Source: a virus. Taken from it: a DNA stretch of 30,198 nt. The notes under the pieces were generated by a model. The model was not told where the DNA came from and ran no database searches. It worked only from the letters and a program-made list of their open reading frames with translations. This document shows, piece after piece, positions 1,671 through 30,198 of the stretch (positions are counted from its first letter, which is position 1; each line of letters starts with the position of its first letter). Where the stretch lies: the IMG/VR virus record IMGVR_UViG_3300042450_000745, positions 1 through 30,198 of that record; one strand, written 5' to 3'. The position numbers were made by a program, and so were the translations under genes.

Positions 1671-1701
1671 TTAGTTTATTAAAAATAAATTTATATATTT
1701 G
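1671..1701 (+). promoter_or_regulatory. Bacteroidota-type promoter of the primase-helicase operon
   Basis: TTAG (1671-1674) sits 19 bp upstream of a perfect TAnnTTTG box, TATATTTG, at 1694-1701. Transcription should start at about 1706-1708, inside or beside the first arm of the structured leader. Confidence 0.7.
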
Positions 1702-5658: not shown

Positions 5659-5666
5659 TATATTTG
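5659..5666 (+). promoter_or_regulatory. -7 promoter element TATATTTG
   Basis: A perfect TAnnTTTG box. No clear TTG lies 19-20 bp upstream, so the -33 half is weak. Its position directly before a structured leader is the same as at 1694. Confidence 0.55.
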
Positions 5667-7011: not shown

Positions 7012-7019
7012 TATATTTG
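7012..7019 (+). promoter_or_regulatory. -7 promoter element TATATTTG before the HNH gene
   Basis: A perfect TAnnTTTG box. A T-rich stretch at 6983-6988 is the only -33 candidate. It precedes a structured leader, as at 1694 and 5659. Confidence 0.5.
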
Positions 7020-8455: not shown

Positions 8456-8492
8456 TTTGTTACAAAATAACTTTTTACCGTTATATTAATAT
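8456..8492 (+). promoter_or_regulatory. Late bipartite element, copy 1
   Basis: TTTG (8456-8459), ACAAAA (8462-8467) and GTTATA (8480-8485) followed by TTAATAT. The ACAAAA-to-GTTATA distance is 18 bp start to start, as in the other three copies. Here the position of the start codon is occupied by ATA, and the real ATG lies 20 bp further on. Confidence 0.6.
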
Positions 8493-8498
8493 AATTAC

Positions 8499-8506
8499 TA
8501 TATTTG
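8499..8506 (+). promoter_or_regulatory. -7 promoter element TATATTTG before 8511
   Basis: A perfect TAnnTTTG box ending 4 bp before the ATG at 8511. Transcription would start at or just past the ATG, so the mRNA would be leaderless or nearly so. It may give host-type early expression of the sigma-like operon in addition to the late element just upstream. Confidence 0.5.
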
Positions 8507-8510
8507 TCAA

Positions 8511-8744
8511 ATGATTAAACCTTACACGATATCGACTCAAATGTGGTTGGAACAAGAAGACGATAATTTTGGTTTCAATGGCTCGTATGTAGATTTTAGA
8601 GTCAATGTCGATAGTATTGACGGTTTTTGGGTTGAGGCTGACGACGAAATTGTTTTAATAATTAGAGGGACGGCTTACTATATTGAGAACGAGACTCACG
8701 TTTTAAATTTTTTAAACGAGTTTTTTAATCCAATGCGGTTATGA
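8511..8744 (+). CDS. Hypothetical 77-residue protein upstream of the sigma-like gene
   Basis: An acidic, beta-rich small protein (YVDFRVNVDSIDGFWVEADDEIVLIIRG) with a C-terminal helix (ETHVLNFLNEFF). No family recognised. Its TGA overlaps the ATG of the sigma-like gene as ATGA (8741-8744), so the two are translationally coupled; a partner or modulator role for the regulator is possible but not shown. Confidence 0.65.
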   Translation: MIKPYTISTQMWLEQEDDNFGFNGSYVDFRVNVDSIDGFWVEADDEIVLIIRGTAYYIENETHVLNFLNEFFNPMRL

Positions 8745-9169
8745 TTATCCACGAACTCGCTAAAAAGGACGCGCAATGGAGAAAAATGGCTTTACAAATT
8801 TGTAAAAACAAAGACTTAGCAGACGAGTTAGTTCAAAATATGTATATAAAATTATCCGAGAGGACAATTCCAGTCTCAGACGGATATATATTTGTAACTT
8901 TGAGGTCATTATTTTATGACTCTCTTAAAAATAACGATATTTTAATCGACGATTTTAGTAAATTTGAAGTCGAAGACGAGGAATATAACGAGGGAATTGA
9001 TTATAAAGAGCTTTCAAAAGACCTAACTTGGTACGAAAGGACTTTATTTGAACTCTCAACGCTTCATGGACAGCGTGAACTATCGAGACAAACAGGAATA
9101 CACATACAAACTATCCATCGAGTTAATAAGATGGTTAAAATTAAACTAAATGGCAAAAAAAAGGATTAA
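8741..9169 (+). CDS. Sigma-70-like regulator (probable late transcription factor)
   Basis: 142 residues. The N-terminal ~70 (WRKMALQICKNKDLADELVQNMYIKLSE ... GYIFVTLRSLFYDSL) match the pattern of sigma region 2: a hydrophobic helix, then (D/E)xADELVQ and a following aromatic helix. The C-terminal ~50 (LTWYERTLFELSTLHGQRELSRQTGIHIQTIHRVNKMVKIKL) look like the region 4 helix-turn-helix. The acidic linker is short, giving an ECF-like layout at the low end of size. It sits at the junction between replication and morphogenesis genes and upstream of four copies of a shared promoter-like element, so I infer that it directs late transcription. Alternative: a terminase- or DNA-associated HTH protein. 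Confidence 0.6.
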   Translation: MIIHELAKKDAQWRKMALQICKNKDLADELVQNMYIKLSERTIPVSDGYIFVTLRSLFYDSLKNNDILIDDFSKFEVEDEEYNEGIDYKELSKDLTWYERTLFELSTLHGQRELSRQTGIHIQTIHRVNKMVKIKLNGKKKD

Positions 9170-9521
9170 AAAAGAAATTCAAGGACTTGGAGACGTTGTC
9201 GCCAATCTAACCTCAGCGGTTGGAATTGAGCCTTGCTTAGATTGTAAAGAGAGACAATTCTCTTTAAACAGACTTTTTAACTTTAAAAAGGTTAAGTCTG
9301 AAATGACTCCAATTGATAAGGAACATTTTACTCTATTTTTAGAGGCAAAAGGTCAAAGAGTAATCGACGGAAAACGAACTGAGTTATTATTTGAAGACGT
9401 TGACTATTTAAACGGACTTTATAAACACTATTTTGGCATCGACAATTCTAATTGTCCGAATTGCTCAAAAGTTCACGAAACAATTATCAAAGACTTATTT
9501 AAATTATATAGTTTTAAATAA
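9150..9521 (+). CDS. Zinc-motif protein of unknown function
   Basis: 123 residues, start overlapping the sigma-like gene by 20 bp. There are two CxxC pairs: CLDC (~29-32) and CPNC (~102-105), likely binding a metal ion together. The N-terminal part IQGLGDVVANLTSAVGIEPCLDCKERQFSLNRLFNF is a segment I have seen in hypothetical proteins of Bacteroidota phages near the terminase. A basic start (AKKRIKKEIQ) suggests nucleic-acid contact. No enzymatic motif. A role in DNA recognition for packaging or in late transcription would fit its place, but this is inference. Confidence 0.65.
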   Translation: MAKKRIKKEIQGLGDVVANLTSAVGIEPCLDCKERQFSLNRLFNFKKVKSEMTPIDKEHFTLFLEAKGQRVIDGKRTELLFEDVDYLNGLYKHYFGIDNSNCPNCSKVHETIIKDLFKLYSFK

Positions 9522-9897: not shown

Positions 9898-10218
9898 TTG
9901 AACATTCAAAATATTTCAATTTTGACAGATAAAAGGAAATTTAACGGAGGTTCAAGAGCAGTTGTTCGACCAGACGACAAACGTCTAATGACAAAGTCCG
10001 AAATGCAAGACACTTACGAGCGATTGAAACCTTTTTTACCGGAGGCGATATTGCAACTCGAGGCAGCGATGCAAGCTGGAGAAAAATGGGCGATTGAATT
10101 GTGGTTTAAATACTTCTTTGGAATGCCAAAGCAGACAATCGACCAGCATATTAGTATTGAGAAACCGATTTTTAATTCCTTAGATTTGGATGTTTCAAAA
10201 GACGACGGCTCAGAGTAA
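9898..10218 (+). CDS. Putative terminase small subunit
   Basis: 106 residues from a TTG start at 9898, placed 4 bp after the previous stop; the first in-frame ATG (9990) would remove about a third of the protein. The segment LPEAILQLEAAMQAGEKWAIELWFKYFFGMPKQT, with its helix plus GxPKQT, is the conserved core of small-terminase-like proteins of Bacteroidota phages. The basic N-terminal GGSRAVVRPDDKR could contact DNA. It directly precedes and overlaps the large terminase gene by 29 bp. It should recognise phage DNA and regulate the large subunit. No canonical HTH is obvious, so the call rests on core and location. Confidence 0.65.
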   Translation: MNIQNISILTDKRKFNGGSRAVVRPDDKRLMTKSEMQDTYERLKPFLPEAILQLEAAMQAGEKWAIELWFKYFFGMPKQTIDQHISIEKPIFNSLDLDVSKDDGSE

Positions 10219-11353
10219 AATTGCCAAACTAAGAAAACGAGTTAGGATTGTGCAAGGTGGAACGAGTAGTTCCAAAACGTTTTCGATATTGCCACTTCTT
10301 ATAACTTACGCTATTGAAAACCCGTTTTCGGAAATATCAATAGTTAGTGAGAGCATTCCTCATTTAAAAAGGGGAGCTTTAAAAGACTTCCAAAAGATAA
10401 TGTTAATGACTGACAACTATCGAGATGCTAATTTCAATCGGTCGTCCTTAAAATATACATTCTCGAATAATTCCTATATTGAATTTTTTAGCGTCGACCA
10501 ACCCGACAAACTCAGGGGAGCGAGACGTGATATTCTATTTATAAATGAGTGCAATAATATCGACTTTGAAAGTTATCAGCAACTCGCAATCCGGACCAAA
10601 AAATTTATATACCTTGACTACAACCCTACGAATGAATTTTGGGTGCAAACGGAACTATTAAACGATCCGGACTCTGACTTTGTTATTTTAACGTACAAGG
10701 ATAACGAGGCACTCGATCCAGCAATCGTTCGAGAGATTGAGAAAGCAAAAGACAAAGCACTTACCTCAACGTATTGGGCAAACTGGTGGAATGTTTACGG
10801 ACTCGGTCAACTTGGCTCACTTGAGGGAGTGATATTCCAAAATTGGGAGCAAATCGATACCATACCAACGGAGGCAAAATTCTTAGGAAGTGGACTCGAT
10901 TTTGGTTACTCGAATGATCCGACAGCGCATATTGCAATATACGATTTTAATGGTAAAATAATCGTTGACGAATTGATTTATTCAACCTCACTTTTGAACT
11001 CGGATATTATTAGACTAATGAAGCAGGAACGAACGGCTCCAATTTGGGCAGACTCAGCCGAGCCGAAGTCAATCGAGGAAATAAGACGAGCGGGTTTCAA
11101 TATTAAACCAGTTGTTAAAGGTGCCGACTCAATCAATTATGGAATATCGGTACTTCAACAAAAGGACATTTTAGTTACTAAGTCAAGCACTAATCTAATT
11201 AAAGAGTTGAGGAATTATAGTTGGGACGTTGACAAAACGGGAAAAAAATTAAACCGACCTATCGACGAATTTAACCACGCAATCGACGCTCTGAGATACT
11301 TTGCAATGATGAGCCTAGCGATAAATAAAAGTCGTCGCTTAATAATCACATAA
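10190..11353 (+). CDS. terL: Terminase large subunit (Terminase_3/PBSX XtmB type)
   Basis: 387 residues. The packaging ATPase has Walker A GGTSSSKT (residues 23-30) and Walker B ILFINE (~115-120), followed by the coupling motif LDYNPTN. The C-terminal RNase H-like nuclease shows GLDFGYSNDPTA (~235), IWADSAEP and DEFNHAIDALRY, whose Asp residues hold the two metals. The length is typical for the family. It cuts concatemeric DNA and pumps it into the prohead. The gene ends 38 bp before the next unit, which has its own late element. Separation from the portal gene by about 10 kb of tail and capsid genes is unusual. Confidence 0.95.
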   Translation: MFQKTTAQSKIAKLRKRVRIVQGGTSSSKTFSILPLLITYAIENPFSEISIVSESIPHLKRGALKDFQKIMLMTDNYRDANFNRSSLKYTFSNNSYIEFFSVDQPDKLRGARRDILFINECNNIDFESYQQLAIRTKKFIYLDYNPTNEFWVQTELLNDPDSDFVILTYKDNEALDPAIVREIEKAKDKALTSTYWANWWNVYGLGQLGSLEGVIFQNWEQIDTIPTEAKFLGSGLDFGYSNDPTAHIAIYDFNGKIIVDELIYSTSLLNSDIIRLMKQERTAPIWADSAEPKSIEEIRRAGFNIKPVVKGADSINYGISVLQQKDILVTKSSTNLIKELRNYSWDVDKTGKKLNRPIDEFNHAIDALRYFAMMSLAINKSRRLIIT

Positions 11354-11356
11354 TTT

Positions 11357-11394
11357 TTATAAACAAAATCACTTTTTTTAGTTATATATATATG
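11357..11394 (+). promoter_or_regulatory. Late bipartite element, copy 2 (tail operon)
   Basis: ACAAAA starts at 11363 and GTTATA at 11381, 18 bp apart; the ATG at 11392 begins 11 bp after the start of GTTATA. If GTTATA is the -10 box, transcription would begin at the A of the ATG (leaderless mRNA). Confidence 0.6.
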
Positions 11395-12084
11395 AGAGTA
11401 GTAATTCCAACGGATTTAAAGGAGATTAAATTGTCTCAATATTTGAGATATTTAAAAGTATTAAAAGACAACCAAGACGATGAGACCTTTGTGTGTATTC
11501 AAATGGTTGCTATATTTTGTAACCTCAGCGTGGCTGACGTTATGAAAATACCAGTCAACGATTTCTCTGAAATAGTGGAAAATTTGGCTAAGGTATTAGA
11601 TCAAAAACCCGAGAGAGTTAAAACATTTAAAATGAACGGGGTTGAGTTTGGTTTTATTCCAAACTTAGATAAAATGACACTTGGCGAACACGCAACGATT
11701 GACTCGTTACTCGGCAACGATGAGAATTTAAGTTTATTGATGTCTGTTTTGTATCGTCCAATTATTAAAAAGGTAACGCCATTTTATCAAATTGAGCAAT
11801 ACGACGGAGACGAAAGCAAAGCGGAGTTATTTAACGATGTAAGAATGGATGTAGTAATCGGATCAATACTTTTTTTTTGGAATTTAAGCAAGGAATTATT
11901 GAGCAATATCCTATTGCATTTGGAGAGCAAGGCGATGAGGGAGGGGAAATCTCTCGAGGAGGTTTCCACGAACGCTGGGGGTGGTTTCAATCTTTTGTTC
12001 GACTTTCGAGAGAGCTTGGAATTAAACCTCGAGAAGTTGGAAGCGAGCCTCTTCACGAGTCACTCACGCTTTTATCTTACTTAA
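11392..12084 (+). CDS. Tail assembly chaperone-like protein, frame 0 product
   Basis: 230 residues. The N-terminal part (IPTDLKEIKLSQYLRYLKVL ... FCNLSVADVMKIPVNDFSEIVENL ... GVEFGFIPNLDKMTLGEHATIDSLLG ... SVLYRPI) is a pattern shared by Bacteroidota phage proteins encoded near the tape measure. After the nine-T tract at 11870-11878 the zero frame continues for about 67 codons (FFWNLSKELLSNILLHLES ...), which still resembles the family's C-terminus. The same DNA is also open in the -1 frame, where a very different conserved-looking sequence is encoded. This recalls the lambda G/GT pair, in which a slippage makes two chaperone forms. Head gene of the tail operon. Confidence 0.6.
   Translation: MRVVIPTDLKEIKLSQYLRYLKVLKDNQDDETFVCIQMVAIFCNLSVADVMKIPVNDFSEIVENLAKVLDQKPERVKTFKMNGVEFGFIPNLDKMTLGEHATIDSLLGNDENLSLLMSVLYRPIIKKVTPFYQIEQYDGDESKAELFNDVRMDVVIGSILFFWNLSKELLSNILLHLESKAMREGKSLEEVSTNAGGGFNLLFDFRESLELNLEKLEASLFTSHSRFYLT
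11870..11878 (+). promoter_or_regulatory. T9 tract, candidate slippery site for -1 frameshift
   Basis: Nine T followed by GG; in frame 0 it reads CTT TTT TTT TGG. A slip of one base backwards would continue in the -1 frame as TTG GAA TTT. That frame is open to 12137. Confidence 0.45.
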
Positions 12085-13112: not shown

Positions 13113-13273
13113 TGAATATAGTTAAAATTTATAGAGAAAACGATACAATTCCAACTTTTACAATAGAGAGTGAAAACGTAATTGACTCAAGTCAATACGT
13201 TATTTTGTGGGATTGTAAAGAGGAAATATATATTAATGAAAAATTGATTGAAACAAAATATCACACAGTATGA
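13112..13273 (+). CDS. 53-residue hypothetical protein in the tail operon
   Basis: ATG at 13112 shares bases with the preceding TAA, and its TGA overlaps the next ATG at 13270 as ATGA. The product is mostly beta (NIVKIYREN, TIPTFTIES, YVILWDCKEEIYINEKLI). No family recognised. Coupling on both sides and the unbroken operon support it; it may be a small tail or baseplate accessory. Confidence 0.6.
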   Translation: MNIVKIYRENDTIPTFTIESENVIDSSQYVILWDCKEEIYINEKLIETKYHTV

Positions 13274-16545: not shown

Positions 16546-16691
16546 TAAATAACATTTTAGAAATGCTCAAACACGCTGAGCAATACGAACACAATGAAAT
16601 AATCTCTTCCGCAAAAGGAAAATATGAACTTCCAAAATCTTATTTTGAACTATTTAAAAAAGCAATGAAATGGCAATCGAAAAAATAATTG
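16542..16691 (+). CDS. 49-residue protein before the tape measure
   Basis: ATG at 16542 overlaps the baseplate stop as ATGA, and the 3' end overlaps the tape measure start by 22 bp. The product is helical and charged (ILEMLKHAEQYEHNEIISSAKGKYELPKSYFELFKKAMK). No known family. Coupling on both sides argues that it is translated; a tail assembly accessory is plausible. Confidence 0.6.
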
Positions 16692-18682
16692 ATTTAAAAA
16701 TTCAAGGTAATGCAGACGAGGCTGTCGGAACCTTACGCTCACAATTAAAACAAGCTCAAGCGGAAGTTGCAACTTTGTCAGAAAAATTCGGAGTTACTTC
16801 GGTTGAAGCTGCTAACGCTGCAACAAAAGCCGCTGAGTTAAGAGATAGGATTGGAGATGCAAGCGCTTTGACAGATGCGTTTAATCCTGACGCTAAATTT
16901 AAAGCTGTGACTTCGTCTTTGGCTGGAGTTGCCTCAGGATTTGGAGCTATACAATCCTCAATGGCGTTATTTGGAGCAGAGTCTCAAGACGTTGAAAAAA
17001 CGCTTTTAAAAGTTCAAAGCGCAATGCAATTAACTCAATTCTTACAACAGTCAGGAGAGAGTATCGACTCGTTTCAACAATTGGGTGCGGTTATTCAATC
17101 GACAACTTCTTATCAAAAATTAAATAGTCTTGCAACCGCTGCCGCAGCGGCCGTTCAAAAATTATTCACCGGTGCGGTAAATACGACAGCAACTTCATTT
17201 AACGCTTTAAAAACCGCAATAGTATCGACAGGAATTGGAGCTTTGGTTGTAGGTATTGGCTATTTGATAGCTAAAATGAATGAGAATGCGGATGCAACTG
17301 AAAAATTGACTTTAGAGCAAGAGTCTTTAAATAAACAGCTTGAAATTACAAAAAAATTAACCGACGACAATGCGAAAGCAATTGATTATGATACTCAAAT
17401 AAAATTAGCAAATGCTAAAAAAGTTGGTGCGTCGGATAAGGAGTTATTGCGAATACAATTAGACGGTTACGAGGCTAAGGGAAAGGCAAATAATAAAGAG
17501 ATTGAGGATATTCAAAACACTCAAAGTAAAGCAATTAATTTAACAAAAGAGCAAAATAAAAGAATACAGGATTTAAGAGAGCAAAATTTAGATTTACAAA
17601 GGAAAGGAAATGTAGATATTGCTAATTCGGATGCTGACTTAGCTAATAAACAAAGAGAGGCAAGTAAAAAAGCTGGAGAAGAGAGCGCAGCAAATAAAAA
17701 GAAAAATAGAGAAGAGAGAGAGGCTGAAAGGAAAAAAGACGCTGAGGCTTTAAAGGCAGCATTACAAGCGCAAAAAGATGCTGAGTTAATCCAAAGACAA
17801 GAGATAACAAAAGCAATAGGAGACGCTCAAGACAAACAAGCTGAGGCTAATATGACAGCTAGCGAGGTAGAGCAAAGAGTTGTTAAAGATAAATATTTTG
17901 GTTTAATCGAGTTAGCAAAACAACAAAACCGATCAAAGGAGGAAATTGACGCATTAGAAGTTCAAAGGCTAAATGAATTAAATGACATAAAAGATAAATT
18001 TCGACTTCAAGACGACGAGAAAAAAACGGCAGAGTTAGAAAAAATAGTAAGTGACTCAACGGCAACTTTTGACGCGAGACTTGCTGCAATAGACGCAGAG
18101 CAAGCCTTATTTGAAAAGCAATTTGAAGACAAAGTAATTACAGAGGAAGAGTATAATCGTAAAGTAAAAGGATTATCAAAGTCAAGAGAGGATATTGACA
18201 AAGCAGAGAAAGCAGCAAAGGCAGCAAACTTAAAAGCGGTTGGAGATTTGTTAGGAAACCTATCAAGTCTTTTGGGTGAAAGTACCGCAGCGGGTAAAGC
18301 GGCAGCGGTTGCTCAAGCGACTATCTCAACTTACCAAGCGGCTGTTTCGTCTTATAATTCATTATCAGGTATTCCAATTGTGGGGCCGGCTTTGGGAGCT
18401 GTAGCTGCTGGAGTTGCTGTTGCCTCAGGAATTGCAAATGTAAATAAAATTTTATCAGTACAAGTGCCAGGCGGAGGAGGTGGAGGAGGTACAGCTCCAA
18501 CTGCAGCGGCGATGCCGTCGCCTCCAAGTTTCAACACGGTTGGATCAAGTTCAACAAATCAACTCGCTCAGACGATAGGAAGTCAATCTCAAACTCCGAT
18601 AAAAACTTTTGTTGTAGCGTCGGACGTTAGTACAGCTCAGGCTCTCGATAGGTCAATTATATCGAATGCGTCGATAGGTTAA
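16670..18682 (+). CDS. Tail tape measure protein
   Basis: 670 residues. The N-terminal ~130 (LRSQLKQAQAEVATLSEKFG ... AAELRDRIGDA ... FNPDAKFKAVTSSLAGVASGFGAIQSSMALFG) are the typical start of Bacteroidota tape measures. A hydrophobic membrane-like helix lies at ~182-203 (VSTGIGALVVGIGYLIAKM). A long, highly charged coiled coil follows (~205-510), then an Ala-rich hydrophobic segment (VVGPALGAVAAGVAVASGIANV-like) and a Gly/Pro-rich tail (~600-625). It sets tail length; at about 0.15 nm per residue, as in lambda-like tails, the tail would be near 100 nm. Last gene of the tail operon, followed by 341 bp of non-coding DNA. Confidence 0.88.
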   Translation: MAIEKIIDLKIQGNADEAVGTLRSQLKQAQAEVATLSEKFGVTSVEAANAATKAAELRDRIGDASALTDAFNPDAKFKAVTSSLAGVASGFGAIQSSMALFGAESQDVEKTLLKVQSAMQLTQFLQQSGESIDSFQQLGAVIQSTTSYQKLNSLATAAAAAVQKLFTGAVNTTATSFNALKTAIVSTGIGALVVGIGYLIAKMNENADATEKLTLEQESLNKQLEITKKLTDDNAKAIDYDTQIKLANAKKVGASDKELLRIQLDGYEAKGKANNKEIEDIQNTQSKAINLTKEQNKRIQDLREQNLDLQRKGNVDIANSDADLANKQREASKKAGEESAANKKKNREEREAERKKDAEALKAALQAQKDAELIQRQEITKAIGDAQDKQAEANMTASEVEQRVVKDKYFGLIELAKQQNRSKEEIDALEVQRLNELNDIKDKFRLQDDEKKTAELEKIVSDSTATFDARLAAIDAEQALFEKQFEDKVITEEEYNRKVKGLSKSREDIDKAEKAAKAANLKAVGDLLGNLSSLLGESTAAGKAAAVAQATISTYQAAVSSYNSLSGIPIVGPALGAVAAGVAVASGIANVNKILSVQVPGGGGGGGTAPTAAAMPSPPSFNTVGSSSTNQLAQTIGSQSQTPIKTFVVASDVSTAQALDRSIISNASIG

Positions 18683-18988: not shown

Positions 18989-19026
18989 TTTATAACAAAA
19001 CACTAAAAAAAAGTTATAGTAATATG
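18989..19026 (+). promoter_or_regulatory. Late bipartite element, copy 3 (head operon)
   Basis: ACAAAACACT starts at 18995 and GTTATA at 19013, again 18 bp apart, and the ATG at 19024 lies 11 bp after the start of GTTATA. Here the spacer is a run of A instead of T, so the boxes rather than the T run are conserved. It argues for a protease start at 19024 instead of the ATG at 18979. Confidence 0.6.
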
Positions 19027-20118
19027 GAGACTTACAAAGTTATTTTTAACGAAGAGGAAAACGAGGGAGTTTATGCTGTGTCTTTAGTTTCAGATCCAGC
19101 GATAGGAGTTAATTTTATAACGCTATCAAATCAAAAAGAAATTAAACTTGCAACCGTAAATGAGGAGCAACGAATTTTGATGGGTGCAATATTAATTCCA
19201 AACCAACCGATTTACAGAAATCAGGACGGACACGAATTTAATATCGTATTCCCAAAAGAAACGATAAAACAAGTTCAACAAAATTTCGCATTAAAGGGGT
19301 ATCAAAATAATTCAACCATTGAACACTCAGGAAATAATATTGCAAATGTAACATTTGTTGAAAGTTGGATAAAAGAGGACGAGGTACACGATAAGTCAGT
19401 ACACTACGGATTTAACGAAGAGGTTGGGACTTGGTTTGGATTAATGAAAATTAATAACGACGAGATTTGGAACGATTACGTTAAGACTGGTAAAGTCAAA
19501 GGATTTTCGATTGACGGAGTCTTTGATATGGAGAAAGTAAATTTAAAAACAGAGATTAATATGAATTTAGAAAGTATCGTTAACGCGATAAAAGATGGTT
19601 TCGCATCGATAAAATTATCGAACGAGGCAGAGCAAGTTAAAGTCGTTATTGCAATGGCTACAATGATGCTAAAAGATGGTGTGACTATTTTAGAGGCTGA
19701 GTCTTTTGAGGCTGAGCAAGCGGTTTTTATCGTTACTGAAAATGGCGACAAAGTTCCAGCTCCAGTTGGAAAACACGAACTTGAAGACGGAAGAATTTTA
19801 GTAATTACTCAAGAGGGAATAATTGCTGAGATTAAAGACGCAATGGTTGAAGAGGAAACTCCAGCCGATGACGTTGAGGTTGAAGTTGAAATGACAACTG
19901 AGGAAATGATTAAAGCAATCGTAACCAATATGAGCGTTGAAGTTTCAAAACAAATTGAAGCAATTAGAACTGAATTAAGTGCTAAAATTGCTGAGGTTAA
20001 AACTACTCAAGTTGAAGTGAAAGCGTCAACAAAAGCAAAGCCGGAAGTTGCTGAAACTTCAACAAAAAACGTGAAACTTTCAAGATCACAAAAAATATTA
20101 AATAACTTAAAAAAATAA
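19024..20118 (+). CDS. XkdF-like prohead protease fused to a scaffold-like region
   Basis: From ATG 19024 the product has 364 residues. Residues ~1-170 (EGVYAVSLVSDPAIGVNF ... MGAILIPNQPIYR ... STIEHSG ... VESWIKEDE ... WFGLMKINNDEIWNDYVKTGKVKGFSIDGVF) match the phage XkdF serine protease domain, including the TIEHSG and GFSIDG segments. The rest is acidic and helical (DVEVEVEMTTEEMIKAIVTNMSVEVSKQIEAIRTELSAKI), as expected for an internal scaffold that the protease degrades in maturation, and ends with a basic helix. It precedes the capsid gene by 9 bp. The start is set by the late element at 18989-19026. Confidence 0.82.
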   Translation: METYKVIFNEEENEGVYAVSLVSDPAIGVNFITLSNQKEIKLATVNEEQRILMGAILIPNQPIYRNQDGHEFNIVFPKETIKQVQQNFALKGYQNNSTIEHSGNNIANVTFVESWIKEDEVHDKSVHYGFNEEVGTWFGLMKINNDEIWNDYVKTGKVKGFSIDGVFDMEKVNLKTEINMNLESIVNAIKDGFASIKLSNEAEQVKVVIAMATMMLKDGVTILEAESFEAEQAVFIVTENGDKVPAPVGKHELEDGRILVITQEGIIAEIKDAMVEEETPADDVEVEVEMTTEEMIKAIVTNMSVEVSKQIEAIRTELSAKIAEVKTTQVEVKASTKAKPEVAETSTKNVKLSRSQKILNNLKK

Positions 20119-21632: not shown

Positions 21633-21661
21633 AAAAAAAAGTCACTTCGGTGGCTTTTTTT
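21633..21661 (+). terminator. Intrinsic terminator with TTCG loop
   Basis: AAAGTCAC (ending 21645) and GTGGCTTT (from 21650) pair around a TTCG tetraloop at 21646-21649 with one T-G pair; A and T runs on both sides allow it to work in either direction. Confidence 0.88.
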
Positions 21662-21696
21662 GTTACAAAACACTTTTTTTTAGTTATATTAATATG
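21659..21696 (+). promoter_or_regulatory. Late bipartite element, copy 4 (portal operon)
   Basis: TTTG (21659-21662 when read from the T run), ACAAAACACT from 21665, GTTATA at 21683, ATG at 21694. The ACAAAA-to-GTTATA distance is 18 bp and GTTATA-to-ATG 11 bp. It shares the 12-mer TTTGTTACAAAA with copy 1 (8456-8467). It lies directly after the terminator, where a new promoter is needed. Confidence 0.65.
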
Positions 21697-22002
21697 TGGA
21701 TATTTAATTTAACAGCGCCTTATCAATTCAAATGTATTCCTCGTTATTATAACGAGGGCGAATTGACGTTTTTTTTACGCGATGAGCTTAGAGATATTAC
21801 TTATACTATTGAAGTTTTAGAAATTTTATACGAAAATAAGATTTTAAAATTAGATTTTGATGAGCCTATTTTAATAGAGGGGCAAAGTTTTGAAATTACA
21901 ATAAATGAGGACGACGTTTTAATATATAGAGGCAAGGCTTTTGCAACTGCTCAGACTGACTTAGAAAATTTTGAACTCAACAAAGGAGTTTTAAAAGTAT
22001 AA
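21694..22002 (+). CDS. Hypothetical 102-residue protein before portal
   Basis: All-beta appearance (MWIFNLTAPYQFKCIPRYYNEGELTFFLRD, DITYTIEVLEILYENKILKLDF, GQSFEITINEDDVLIYRGKAF). No family recognised; the strand pattern and acidic tail would suit a small virion or tail accessory. Its start is fixed by the late element, which ends exactly at this ATG. It is the first gene of the portal operon, 4 bp before the portal start. Confidence 0.65.
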   Translation: MWIFNLTAPYQFKCIPRYYNEGELTFFLRDELRDITYTIEVLEILYENKILKLDFDEPILIEGQSFEITINEDDVLIYRGKAFATAQTDLENFELNKGVLKV

Positions 22003-22006
22003 ATTT

Positions 22007-23929
22007 ATGGAAAAATTACAAATTATAAACCTATCAAACTACATTCGTCCCGAAATTCGAGAAGTTGCTGGAAAAAAATGGGTTTTAAATGGAGATAAAA
22101 ACAGTTTTTATCAAACTATTATTGACGCTTACAACGGATCGCCAACTAACTCAGCTATAATTGACTCTTATAGTCAGTTTATTTATGGCAAAGGATTGAC
22201 GTCGGACGACAAAGCTAAAAAACCAAGCGAATGGGCCGCGATAATTTCGTTAGTTTCAAAAAAAGATTTGCGTAAAATATGTAAAGATTTTGAAATGTTT
22301 GGCGAGGCATCGATTGAAATAAAATATATAAATAATAAAATACAACGCTGTTTTCATATTGCAAAACAAAGGATTGCTCCAGAGGTTGCAAACGAAGACG
22401 GAGACATTACTGGATATTATTATAGTTATGATTTTTCAAATGTAAATAAATACAAGCCGGAACGCTTTGACGCTTTTGGTTTTGGAGAGGGTTTAAGCGA
22501 ACGCTCTGAAATTTATATTATTAGAGATTACCAGGTCGGGCAATTTTATTATAGTAATCCAAGTTACGTCTCAGGGATTTCGTGGGCAAAAATGGAGGAG
22601 GAAATTAGCAACTACTCAATCAATCACATTCAAAAAGGGTTGTCATTCGGTCATATTATAAATATGAATTGCGGTATTCAAGAGAGTGCTGAGACAATTC
22701 AAGAAAATACGAGACAAATTCGCAATCACTTAACCGGATCACAAAACGCCGGAGCATTCTTTTTAAATTGGAACGATAATAAAGACAGCGAAATTACGAT
22801 TTCGGCTTTGGAAGTTTCGGACGCTCACCAGCAATATGCTTACTTAAGTGCTGAGGCAAGACAGCAACTTTGCACCTCTCACAAATTAACGTCTCCGATG
22901 TTAGTAGGGATAAAAGAGGCAAATGGTTTTAGCTCAAACGCTGAGGAAATAAAAGTTGGATTTGCTGAATTAATGATTAATGTAATACGTCCAAAACAAG
23001 AGATTATTTTAGACGGATTAATGGAGATTTTTGCCGTTAACGGAATTACTTTGGATTTACAATTTGAAGACTTAAGAGCTGAGGAAGTATTGGCGGAAAT
23101 TGTAACCGACTCAAATGGAACGGAAGTTGCAACGGTTACAAACGACGCTGCCGTTTCTTATAATGGCGCACAAATTACCTCAGCGATTGACATATTTGCA
23201 AAAGTAAAAGAGGGGATTTTAACAATCGAGCAAGCGATAGTTTTCTTAGTTCAATTCCTTAATATTCCAGTTGGAGTTGCTCAATCATTATTTAGTAATC
23301 AAAGCGCTCCGTTGACTCAGTTAGCAAGTCAAAAGGTTTGTTGTTCAAAAGACGATAACGGACTTTCGGAAGTTGCCGACGCTCTTATTGAAATGGGCGA
23401 AATTGTAAACGAGGACGAGTGGATTGAGATTGACTCAATACCAGTAACCAAAGAGCTAGAGATTAACGAAATAACTTTGAATTTAGCGAGGTCATTTGCA
23501 AGTTTTCCAAATGTAACAAGCGAACAAGACACCGAGCTTTTTAAGATACGATATTCTTACGAGGGTAGTTTGGGAGCTGAGAGAGAATTTTGTAGTAAAA
23601 TGGTAAGCGCTGGACGTACTTATCGCAAGGAGGATATTACAATCGCAGAGACAAAAGTTGTTAATGCGGGACTTGGTCCAGACGGAGCTGACAATTATTC
23701 TATTTGGCTTTATAAAGGTGGCGTAAATTGTAACCATTTTTGGATGCGAAAAATATATTTGCGTAAAAATAACGAGAGAATAAGCGTAAACGAGGCTCGA
23801 AAAATGATTTTAGACTTAGATCCGGCAGACAGACCAAGTGCAAAATGGCAAGAGAATGAGATTGAAGTGGCACAAATTGCCTCAGCGAGTAACAATTTTT
23901 GGTCATTAACTCCAAATTATAGACAATAA
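22007..23929 (+). CDS. Portal protein with fused C-terminal head-morphogenesis-like domain
   Basis: 640 residues. Residues ~1-430 look like a portal: an opening with DSYSQFIYGKGLTSDD, DFEMFGEASIEIKY, a clip-like middle, LTGSQNAGAFFLNWND, and the helix DAHQQYAYLSAEARQQLCTSHKLTSPMLVGI followed by GFSSNAEEIKVGF. Residues ~510-610 form a separate domain (FKIRYSYEGSLGAEREFCSKMVSAGRTYRKEDI ... NAGLGPDGADNYSIWLYKGGVNCNHFWMRKIYLR) with Cys and His residues. It resembles the domain attached to portal or Mu F-like minor head proteins of Bacteroidota phages. The portal forms the 12-mer DNA entry gate. The gene lies unusually far from terL and after the capsid. Confidence 0.75.
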   Translation: MEKLQIINLSNYIRPEIREVAGKKWVLNGDKNSFYQTIIDAYNGSPTNSAIIDSYSQFIYGKGLTSDDKAKKPSEWAAIISLVSKKDLRKICKDFEMFGEASIEIKYINNKIQRCFHIAKQRIAPEVANEDGDITGYYYSYDFSNVNKYKPERFDAFGFGEGLSERSEIYIIRDYQVGQFYYSNPSYVSGISWAKMEEEISNYSINHIQKGLSFGHIINMNCGIQESAETIQENTRQIRNHLTGSQNAGAFFLNWNDNKDSEITISALEVSDAHQQYAYLSAEARQQLCTSHKLTSPMLVGIKEANGFSSNAEEIKVGFAELMINVIRPKQEIILDGLMEIFAVNGITLDLQFEDLRAEEVLAEIVTDSNGTEVATVTNDAAVSYNGAQITSAIDIFAKVKEGILTIEQAIVFLVQFLNIPVGVAQSLFSNQSAPLTQLASQKVCCSKDDNGLSEVADALIEMGEIVNEDEWIEIDSIPVTKELEINEITLNLARSFASFPNVTSEQDTELFKIRYSYEGSLGAEREFCSKMVSAGRTYRKEDITIAETKVVNAGLGPDGADNYSIWLYKGGVNCNHFWMRKIYLRKNNERISVNEARKMILDLDPADRPSAKWQENEIEVAQIASASNNFWSLTPNYRQ

Positions 23930-28930: not shown

Positions 28931-28938
28931 TATATTTG
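28931..28938 (+). promoter_or_regulatory. -7 promoter element TATATTTG of the early small-gene operon
   Basis: A perfect TAnnTTTG box with a T-rich stretch at 28907-28914 at the -33 position. The 32-nt leader before 28971 shows no inverted repeats, unlike the four leaders of the replication region. Confidence 0.6.
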
Positions 28939-29654: not shown

Positions 29655-30098
29655 ATGGGAGCAAGTTCAAGTTTATTTTTAGAAAATTCAGAGCAAGTCT
29701 TAACAATGTATGAGCCAACTTTTACAAAAAAGGACGCAATCTTAACAGGAAAGCGAATGGTTGACAATGTAATCGAAAGCGGAGAGATTGACAAACACCA
29801 TTTTATGGCGAATATTTGCCGATTAAAAGAGGTAATTAATTCAGCCGATAGCGAAATGAGAAAACACCTACCGGAGGAGAAACTTAATTGCTACGGGGTT
29901 GAGTTTACACCGACAAATGGAGGTAATTCGATTGACTACTCAGACGATCCGATTTATTGCCAATTAAAAGCCGACCTGGATGCAAGGGTTGAATTATTAA
30001 AACTCGCTCAAAAACAGTCAATAATTGACGCATACGGAAACGACGTTCCCAAAGTGGGAACGACACCTCGAAAAAATTCAATATCACTAAAATTTTAA
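29655..30098 (+). CDS. Hypothetical early protein, complete copy of the window-edge gene
   Basis: ATG at 29655 gives 147 residues; extension to 29433 would cover two small genes in another frame. The N-terminal half (GASSSLFLENSEQVLTMYEPTFTKKDAILTGKRMVDNVIESGEIDKHHFMANICRL) is helical and polar. The C-terminal half is the same as that encoded at 1-273 except for three residues. No family recognised. That 11 of the 16 base differences to the left copy are silent shows purifying selection on this protein. Confidence 0.75.
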   Translation: MGASSSLFLENSEQVLTMYEPTFTKKDAILTGKRMVDNVIESGEIDKHHFMANICRLKEVINSADSEMRKHLPEEKLNCYGVEFTPTNGGNSIDYSDDPIYCQLKADLDARVELLKLAQKQSIIDAYGNDVPKVGTTPRKNSISLKF

Positions 30099-30198
30099 TA
30101 AAAATGAGAATAGGTCAAAAAGTAAGATTAAAACAAACGAGTATTTTTGCAATAGAGCCAGACAGACACAATCCAACCGACAAAATCGGAGTTATAGT
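29826..30198. repeat. Right copy of imperfect terminal direct repeat
   Basis: Aligns to 1-373 without gaps with 16 mismatches (about 4%). The last 127 bp (30072-30198) are identical to 247-373. Confidence 0.95.
30104..30198 (+). CDS. 5' part of the SH3-like small gene, cut by the window edge
   Basis: Identical to the first 95 bp of the gene at 279-491. It shows that gene order continues across the junction exactly as at the left end, so the early operon is continuous in the real molecule. Confidence 0.8.
   Translation, partial: MRIGQKVRLKQTSIFAIEPDRHNPTDKIGVI

Follow-up and report, generated by a model that had tools for sequence, protein, structure and literature searches.

A predicted compact ECF-type sigma factor and a candidate bipartite late promoter whose spacing follows the sigma lineage in putative Bacteroidota phages

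The closest described system to the one analysed here is that of phage 7-11. In the accessible part of PMC8948821, its protein SaPh711_gp47 is described as a phage sigma factor with region 4, which works with the host core polymerase on bipartite late promoters (GTAAtg-16-aCTA) standing before late genes, with transcription starts 6-9 bp from the element; the positions of these promoters are conserved with those of phiEco32, while their sequences differ. The same part of PMC8948821 presents gp36 of phiEco32 as a phage sigma factor that uses the host core for middle and late genes, with a single-element promoter (tAATGTAtA), no recognisable region 4 and gp79 as a working partner. The present locus resembles both systems in its phage sigma factor and the probable use of the host core polymerase, and it shares with 7-11 the presence of region 4 and of bipartite late elements, as well as element positions that are kept where sequences change. 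It differs from 7-11 in host phylum and promoter sequence, being likened to it by description and not by sequence relationship, its predicted starts are anchored to the start codon and its spacing varies by lineage; from phiEco32 it differs by its region 4 and by an element with two parts. A further small divergent phage late sigma factor is gp55 of T4, where late transcription uses gp33 and the sliding clamp. Both gp55 and the present protein are small divergent phage sigma factors, whereas the present element comprises two half-sites.

Homologues occur in the cultured Nonlabens phages P12024S and P12024L. Gene 35 of P12024L (JQ823123; 30% identity in the alignment) likewise lies upstream of terL, is annotated with Sigma-70 region 2 in a record that assigns it no function, and comes with an N14-GTTAATA element of its own. 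The kind of system is already known from phiEco32 and 7-11, while the family, the element and the spacer pattern look new. No description of the present sigma family or element was found among the open-access papers searched, and the accessible parts of PMC7077304, PMC4615864 and PMC8776804 mention no sigma factor. Altogether, it is considered highly probable that the locus encodes a phage ECF-type sigma factor that is started from a host-type box, drives late operons through the element and amplifies its own expression.

The window, meaning the whole stretch of 30,198 bases (33% GC) that was analysed, is the IMG/VR record IMGVR_UViG_3300042450_000745. All of its ORFs longer than 132 aa lie on the + strand. 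The sequence of its first 373 bases (1-373) recurs at its other end (29826-30198) with 16 mismatches, as if the contig extended beyond the end of a circular or permuted genome and continued in a variant copy. A Bacteroidota host is suggested by the Flavobacterium-phage relatives of terL, the Nonlabens phage, the host-type boxes and one MAG relative. The records used for comparison are metagenomic and mostly incomplete. The features of the window referred to below are the following:

1694..1701, + strand: host-type TATATTTG box on the replication side
5659..5666, + strand: host-type TATATTTG box on the replication side
7012..7019, + strand: host-type TATATTTG box on the replication side
Upstream of the sigma gene: replication genes, BT4734-like/PriCT_1 primase and helicase
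8458..8490, + strand: element copy 1, TTACAAAA-N12-GTTATAT, upstream of the sigma operon, 24 nt ahead of the start codon (ATG) of the 77-aa ORF
8499..8506, + strand: host-type -7 box TATATTTG, beside element copy 1
8511..8744, + strand: 77-aa ORF, co-directional with the sigma gene and overlapping its start by 4 nt
8741..9169, + strand: open ORF for the predicted ECF-type sigma factor of 142 aa, region 2 at about residues 1-65 and region 4 at about 86-140
9150..9521, + strand: 123-aa ORF with two CxxC pairs, overlapping the sigma end; phrog_32048, function not assigned by PHROG
10190-11353: terL, downstream of the sigma gene
11359..11391, + strand: element copy 2, GTTATAT-N4-ATG, before the first gene after terL
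11392..12084, + strand: phrog_32199 gene, first after terL, function not assigned by PHROG
16670-18682: tape measure gene, later than the phrog_32199 gene
18991..19023, + strand: element copy 3, TAACAAAA-N12-GTTATAG-N4-ATG, before the head protease gene
19024..20118, + strand: head maturation protease-like gene, Peptidase_S78_2 / phrog_24921 (scanned from 18979)
21661..21693, + strand: element copy 4, TTACAAAA-N12-GTTATAT-N4-ATG, before the portal operon
21694..23929, + strand: 102-aa ORF and portal protein (22007-23929)
Downstream of the sigma gene: tail protein and lysozyme genes, in the same module as tape measure, protease and portal
28931..28938, + strand: host-type TATATTTG box after the lysozyme/phosphoesterase genes

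From the sequence alone, region 2-like and region 4-like HTH segments had been proposed for the 142-residue product. Both were recovered, with LADELVQNMYIKL as a region-2.2-like stretch and an HTH at the C-terminus. The single sequence gives only hints, since its NCBIfam matches to NF058625 (E 0.0019) and TIGR02937 (E 0.0037) both lie under the curated cut-offs; for TIGR02937, the determined 16.9 bits do not reach the threshold of 42.9, which is a curated naming cut-off and not a defining biological feature. A Pfam scan of the window protein alone gave no significant match, and phmmer against the PDB no relevant one. The assignment is settled by the family, for which 95 relatives were confirmed in IMG/VR with the protein query and 304 with the alignment query (best 80 of each kept). 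The Pfam cut-off of 24 for Sigma70_r2 was passed by three of the five relatives scanned (27.8, 27.3 and 25.2 bits), while one remained under it and one showed no match. TIGR02937 was matched by two relatives with E-values of 9.5e-8 and 4.8e-11, the better one amounting to 42.6 bits, 0.3 bits short of the cut-off. Furthermore, the profile of the A3 family (26 members) matches the solved sigma factor 5uxx (RpoE) over residues 14-138, covering both domains (E 3.1e-6), and the C-terminal part alone (62-140) of a clade-IV relative, L368, matches the sigma C model NF006930 (E 2.4e-6). Pfam region-4 models matched neither the window protein nor the five relatives scanned, a Pfam scan of seven clade-V members gave no sigma match, and tblastn of three distant sigma proteins against the phage collection gave no match at E 0.001.

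The AlphaFold2 model of the window protein, which is of moderate confidence (pLDDT 74.7, pTM 0.41), comprises two helical domains and a low-confidence linker. ECF sigma factors (SigH, SigE, SigL, RpoE and SigR) are among the solved structures nearest to it. The fold of region 2 (residues 1-63) aligned with 1h3l_A at a Z of 8.7 and an rmsd of 1.9; that of region 4 (residues 86-140) aligned with SigF region 4 at a Z of 7.6 and an rmsd of 2.0, where Z alone could be chance, as can be the case below 8 for small helical domains. Since the query-normalised Foldseek TM-scores of the model do not exceed 0.40, the relative placement of the domains is unreliable. As in ECF sigma factors, regions 2 and 4 are present and regions 1.1 and 3 are absent in the 142 aa. 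Profile and fold comparison, one route by which the sequence-only reading could have failed, placed the family among ECF sigma factors and not elsewhere, and the protein is accordingly predicted to be a compact ECF-type sigma factor. In one relative (L121:10001-10531), about 34 extra residues stand between region 2 and region 4 with the frame kept, representing a natural variant of linker length.

The element follows the consensus ACAAAW-N12-GTTATAT, often continued by N4 and an ATG. Counting the A of the ATG as +1, GTTATAT covers -11 to -5 and thus lies close to the host -7 box. The four copies that had been reported do exist: a scoring matrix derived from 17 related genomes (72 sites, 49 of them distinct), with the window left out, ranked them as the top four sites of the window, all on the + strand, at 21661-21693 (34.2), 8458-8490 (32.5), 11359-11391 (30.1) and 18991-19023 (17.2). 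The next best site of the window reached 7.8 and the best on the - strand 6.5, while in sixty simulated windows the top score had a median of 9.5 and went up to 20.9. The site at 18991-19023 is weaker by score alone; it is upheld because of its exact N12 and N4-ATG geometry and because of sites at the same place in two related genomes, G008 and G009. Based on this geometry, the start of the head-protease gene is set at 19024 and not at the longest-ORF start of 18979.

Likewise, the sigma gene lies just downstream of copy 1, with only the 77-aa ORF intervening, and ahead of the operons of the other copies, as copies 2-4 precede the tail-module, head-protease and portal operons. Three of the four copies are therefore placed as in phage late sigma systems of the phiEco32/7-11 type, with a common cognate element before late genes of the same genome. 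Judged by gene content, the sigma gene marks the boundary between the early and the late block.

In the window and 14 long relatives, the pattern ACAA-N14-GTTATAT (equal to ACAAAW-N12-GTTATAT) occurred 44 times on the sigma strand and never on the opposite one; other spacings tried in the same 15 records gave 0-2 matches on the + strand, a gap of 9 with its 7 matches being the one exception, and never more than 3 on the - strand. Among the protein-found loci of the clade, which overlap with these 15 records, all 91 contained the element, amounting to 163 sites on the sigma strand and 0 on the opposite one. It was also present in all 17 of the clade's whole records, which overlap with the 91 loci. 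The 30 matches with N7 on the + strand of the 91 loci look like second ACAA matches within the same sites, as in ACAAAACAACATTTTT. In one subclade (G010-G014, G081, G214 and G215), further late copies use GTTATTA, GTTAATA or GTTATAA with the N12 kept.

Starting from the element, the sigma family was retrieved as well. Among the matches listed of an IMG/VR scan for the element (N12, N4-ATG; best 80 of 119 stretches), 27 of 77 records carried a sigma homologue by profile, compared to 0 of 38 stretches, here the complete set of matches, for a scrambled half-site (Fisher p 3.6e-6). Twelve of these 27 carriers are distant from the window's clade (12/62 vs 0/38, p 0.003, among the matches listed). 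For records of at least 15 kb the values were 19/33, again among the matches listed, and 0/27 for the scrambled control, whose records include many larger phages, so that the two sets differ in kind. No sigma match was present in 50 of the 77 motif-found records among the matches listed, many of them short fragments and four of 75-93 kb; short fragments and chance matches likely explain these cases. An N15 spacer was dropped as negative control, and the scrambled half-site used instead, since N15 proved to be a genuine promoter class of other sigma lineages (sigma is carried by 9 of 79 N15 records).

The question arises whether the element could be read by the host holoenzyme with the help of a different phage activator, such as the two-CxxC protein (9150-9521), with the sigma-like protein merely assisting or appropriating the host polymerase. 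Relatives of the two-CxxC protein were found in every lineage, amounting to 65 of 65 lineage-grouped records (18/18 in the window's clade, 19/19 in four others and 28/28 in clade V, there only after one profile iteration, with position and cysteines checked in the other lineages). However, the host -7 box TAnnTTTG is absent from the element, which carries GTTATAT in its place, while host-type boxes stand separately. In addition, the full element occurred at 4 sites in 148 genomes from the phylum to which a Bacteroidetes MAG belongs, compared to 10 for a reversed control, and this chance level indicates that it is not a host promoter class. The promoter-reading folds belong to the sigma protein, and the gene of the two-CxxC homologue in P12024L looks like a late product because a late element of its own precedes it. 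Reading by an activator is therefore judged improbable, and the two-CxxC protein is possibly a late co-factor or a packaging protein. The 77-aa ORF on the other side of the sigma gene is present in 77 of 77 loci, window included (overlap of 4 nt in 72 and of 7 nt in 5), and in 0 of 47 records outside the window's clade; it is not a general sigma partner.

With a uniform pattern (ACAA..GTTAWWW..ATG, spacings of 8-20), the modal spacer was determined for each lineage. N12 prevailed in three sets: the window's clade, with 46 of 58 sites (1 on the opposite strand), a second group, with 14 of 16, and G083, with 3 of 4. The mode was N13 in another group (7 of 12), N14 for the P12024 clade (17 of 22) and N15 in the A4 clade, or clade V (20 of 41 loose sites in protein-found and 14 of 22 in motif-found records). 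In the P12024 (Nonlabens-phage) clade, GTTATAT is replaced by GTTAATA or GTTATTA; the element of P12024L reads ACAAAW-N14-GTTAATA-N4-ATG, in addition to one N13 and one GTTAATT site. A protein search had supplied the window's clade, the P12024 clade and 20 A4 records. Motif searches had supplied the other N12 groups as well as part of the N15 set, which are therefore biased to their own spacing. The N13 group was retrieved via a match to N12, yet its mode is N13.

In the A4 family, N15 sites were located within the 10-kb flanks in 3 of 80 loci, and in most of the records retrieved by the N15 motif, a distance of over 10 kb separates the late sites from the sigma gene. When twenty longer A4/clade-V records were scanned whole, 13 showed the N15 pattern, with 21 sites on the + and 1 on the - strand, or 18 and 0 when an ATG was required 3-7 nt further on; some of the + sites without ATG may be chance, and the protein-found records of clade V are noisier than others. 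On the sigma tree, a quick-method tree with long branches in which near-copies add to the clustering of labels, the spacer labels required 16 changes compared to a shuffled mean of 35.0, with 0 of 200 shuffles as low, and N13 formed one clade (99 on this tree). A strict per-genome rule left 13 of 66 rows unlabelled, produced the odd labels N8, N9, N19 and N20, and gave the N15 label to no more than 11 of the 28 rows of clade V. Altogether, the geometry of the element shifts with the sigma lineage, the spacer being 12, 13, 14 or 15 nt.

In the distant genomes that were scanned, the late genes behind the elements remain the same despite the change of the spacer. In G083 and G026 the elements stand, as in the window, before phrog_32199, which follows terL, before the head protease gene phrog_24921 and before a small ORF that precedes the portal gene phrog_33693; in G115 before the latter two; and in P12024L before homologues of the window genes at 13270 and 14389. 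L559, a Bacteroidetes MAG contig and the only sigma relative (41%) in the genome-contig collection, lacks the ACAA pattern, and no full element was found anywhere in its genome; its upstream half-sites are altered, while GTTATAT-N4-ATG is kept at two places, one of them directly after an ORF taken as terL by position. FpV9, a terL relative without a tblastn sigma match, showed no N12-GTTATAT site and only three stray loose matches.

The earlier suggestion that a phage sigma factor serves the late promoters is thus strengthened by the family and its fold, by the co-occurrence of element and sigma, by the chance level in hosts and by the variation of geometry with lineage. The protein could also be a sigma mimic, i.e. 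a PhyR-like anti-anti-sigma factor or a decoy, which captures host anti-sigma factors and reads no promoters. While the weaker structural matches include sigma-like domains of PhyR (3t0y), the architecture of PhyR includes a receiver domain for which 142 aa are too short, and both the retrieval of sigma by an element scan of a collection and the co-variation of element geometry with sigma lineage render this explanation very unlikely. That the element is no promoter and instead acts as an operator, a processing site or a translation signal conserved ahead of late ATGs, as the constant 4 nt between GTTATAT and ATG might be read, is hardly credible given the second half-site at exact spacing, the 24 nt that separate copy 1 from its ATG with both half-sites kept, the Bacteroidota genomes that do not use the element and the strict strand bias (163 vs 0).

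For a phage sigma factor acting on late promoters, the following course would result. According to the accessible part of PMC9723704, the -7 box of the Flavobacteriia sigma-A promoter consensus is TAnnTTTG. The five TATATTTG boxes of the window (1694, 5659, 7012, 8499 and 28931) all lie outside the late block, with three more matches within ORFs (8887, 23754 and 25708). Early on, the host polymerase would start at these boxes, including the one beside copy 1, and the sigma factor would be made. It may then bind the host core polymerase and direct it to ACAAAW-N12-GTTATAT, where region 4 would read ACAAAW and region 2 GTTATAT. Copy 1 would boost the expression of the sigma factor itself, and copies 2-4 would switch on the tail, head and portal operons, whose late timing we infer from gene content. 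Late transcripts would begin at or beside the ATG; its position exactly 4 nt past GTTATAT at 76 of 163 sites fits leaderless late transcripts.

The combination of a host-driven start with self-amplification, which the sequence-only reading had derived from the host-type box next to copy 1, held in part. The box is located at 8499-8506 as claimed, and all 77 loci that offer 400 nt or more of upstream sequence (window included; 4 of 81 fell short) carry an element no further than 330 nt ahead of the sigma gene. On the other hand, TATATTTG was found in only 51 of these 77, and in three genomes of the other subclade (G010, G012 and G014) copy 1 lies inside an upstream ORF.

Whether the locus represents a late sigma class that is widespread among Bacteroidota phages and new to the literature, with the same half-sites throughout, a spacing of 12, 13, 14 or 15 nt and a -10 variant particular to each lineage, and late mRNAs that begin at the start codon, is regarded as evenly balanced. 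The phylum is one of unusual promoters and translation starts. Since leaderless mRNAs comprise only 5.5% in F. psychrophilum (accessible part of PMC9723704), a whole leaderless late class would be unusual. If true, sigma factor and promoter spacing would co-diversify while the promoter positions stay fixed, which would challenge the view that the geometry of sigma on the polymerase fixes the spacing. The matched sigma/promoter sets with different spacers would constitute a natural experiment on promoter spacing and could provide compact orthogonal parts for gene expression in a phylum where tools are few, and the homologues in the cultured phages P12024S and P12024L make the claim testable at the bench. 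Furthermore, the timing of late genes in a large group of small Bacteroidota phages would be explained by the use of host promoters, followed by that of a phage sigma factor.
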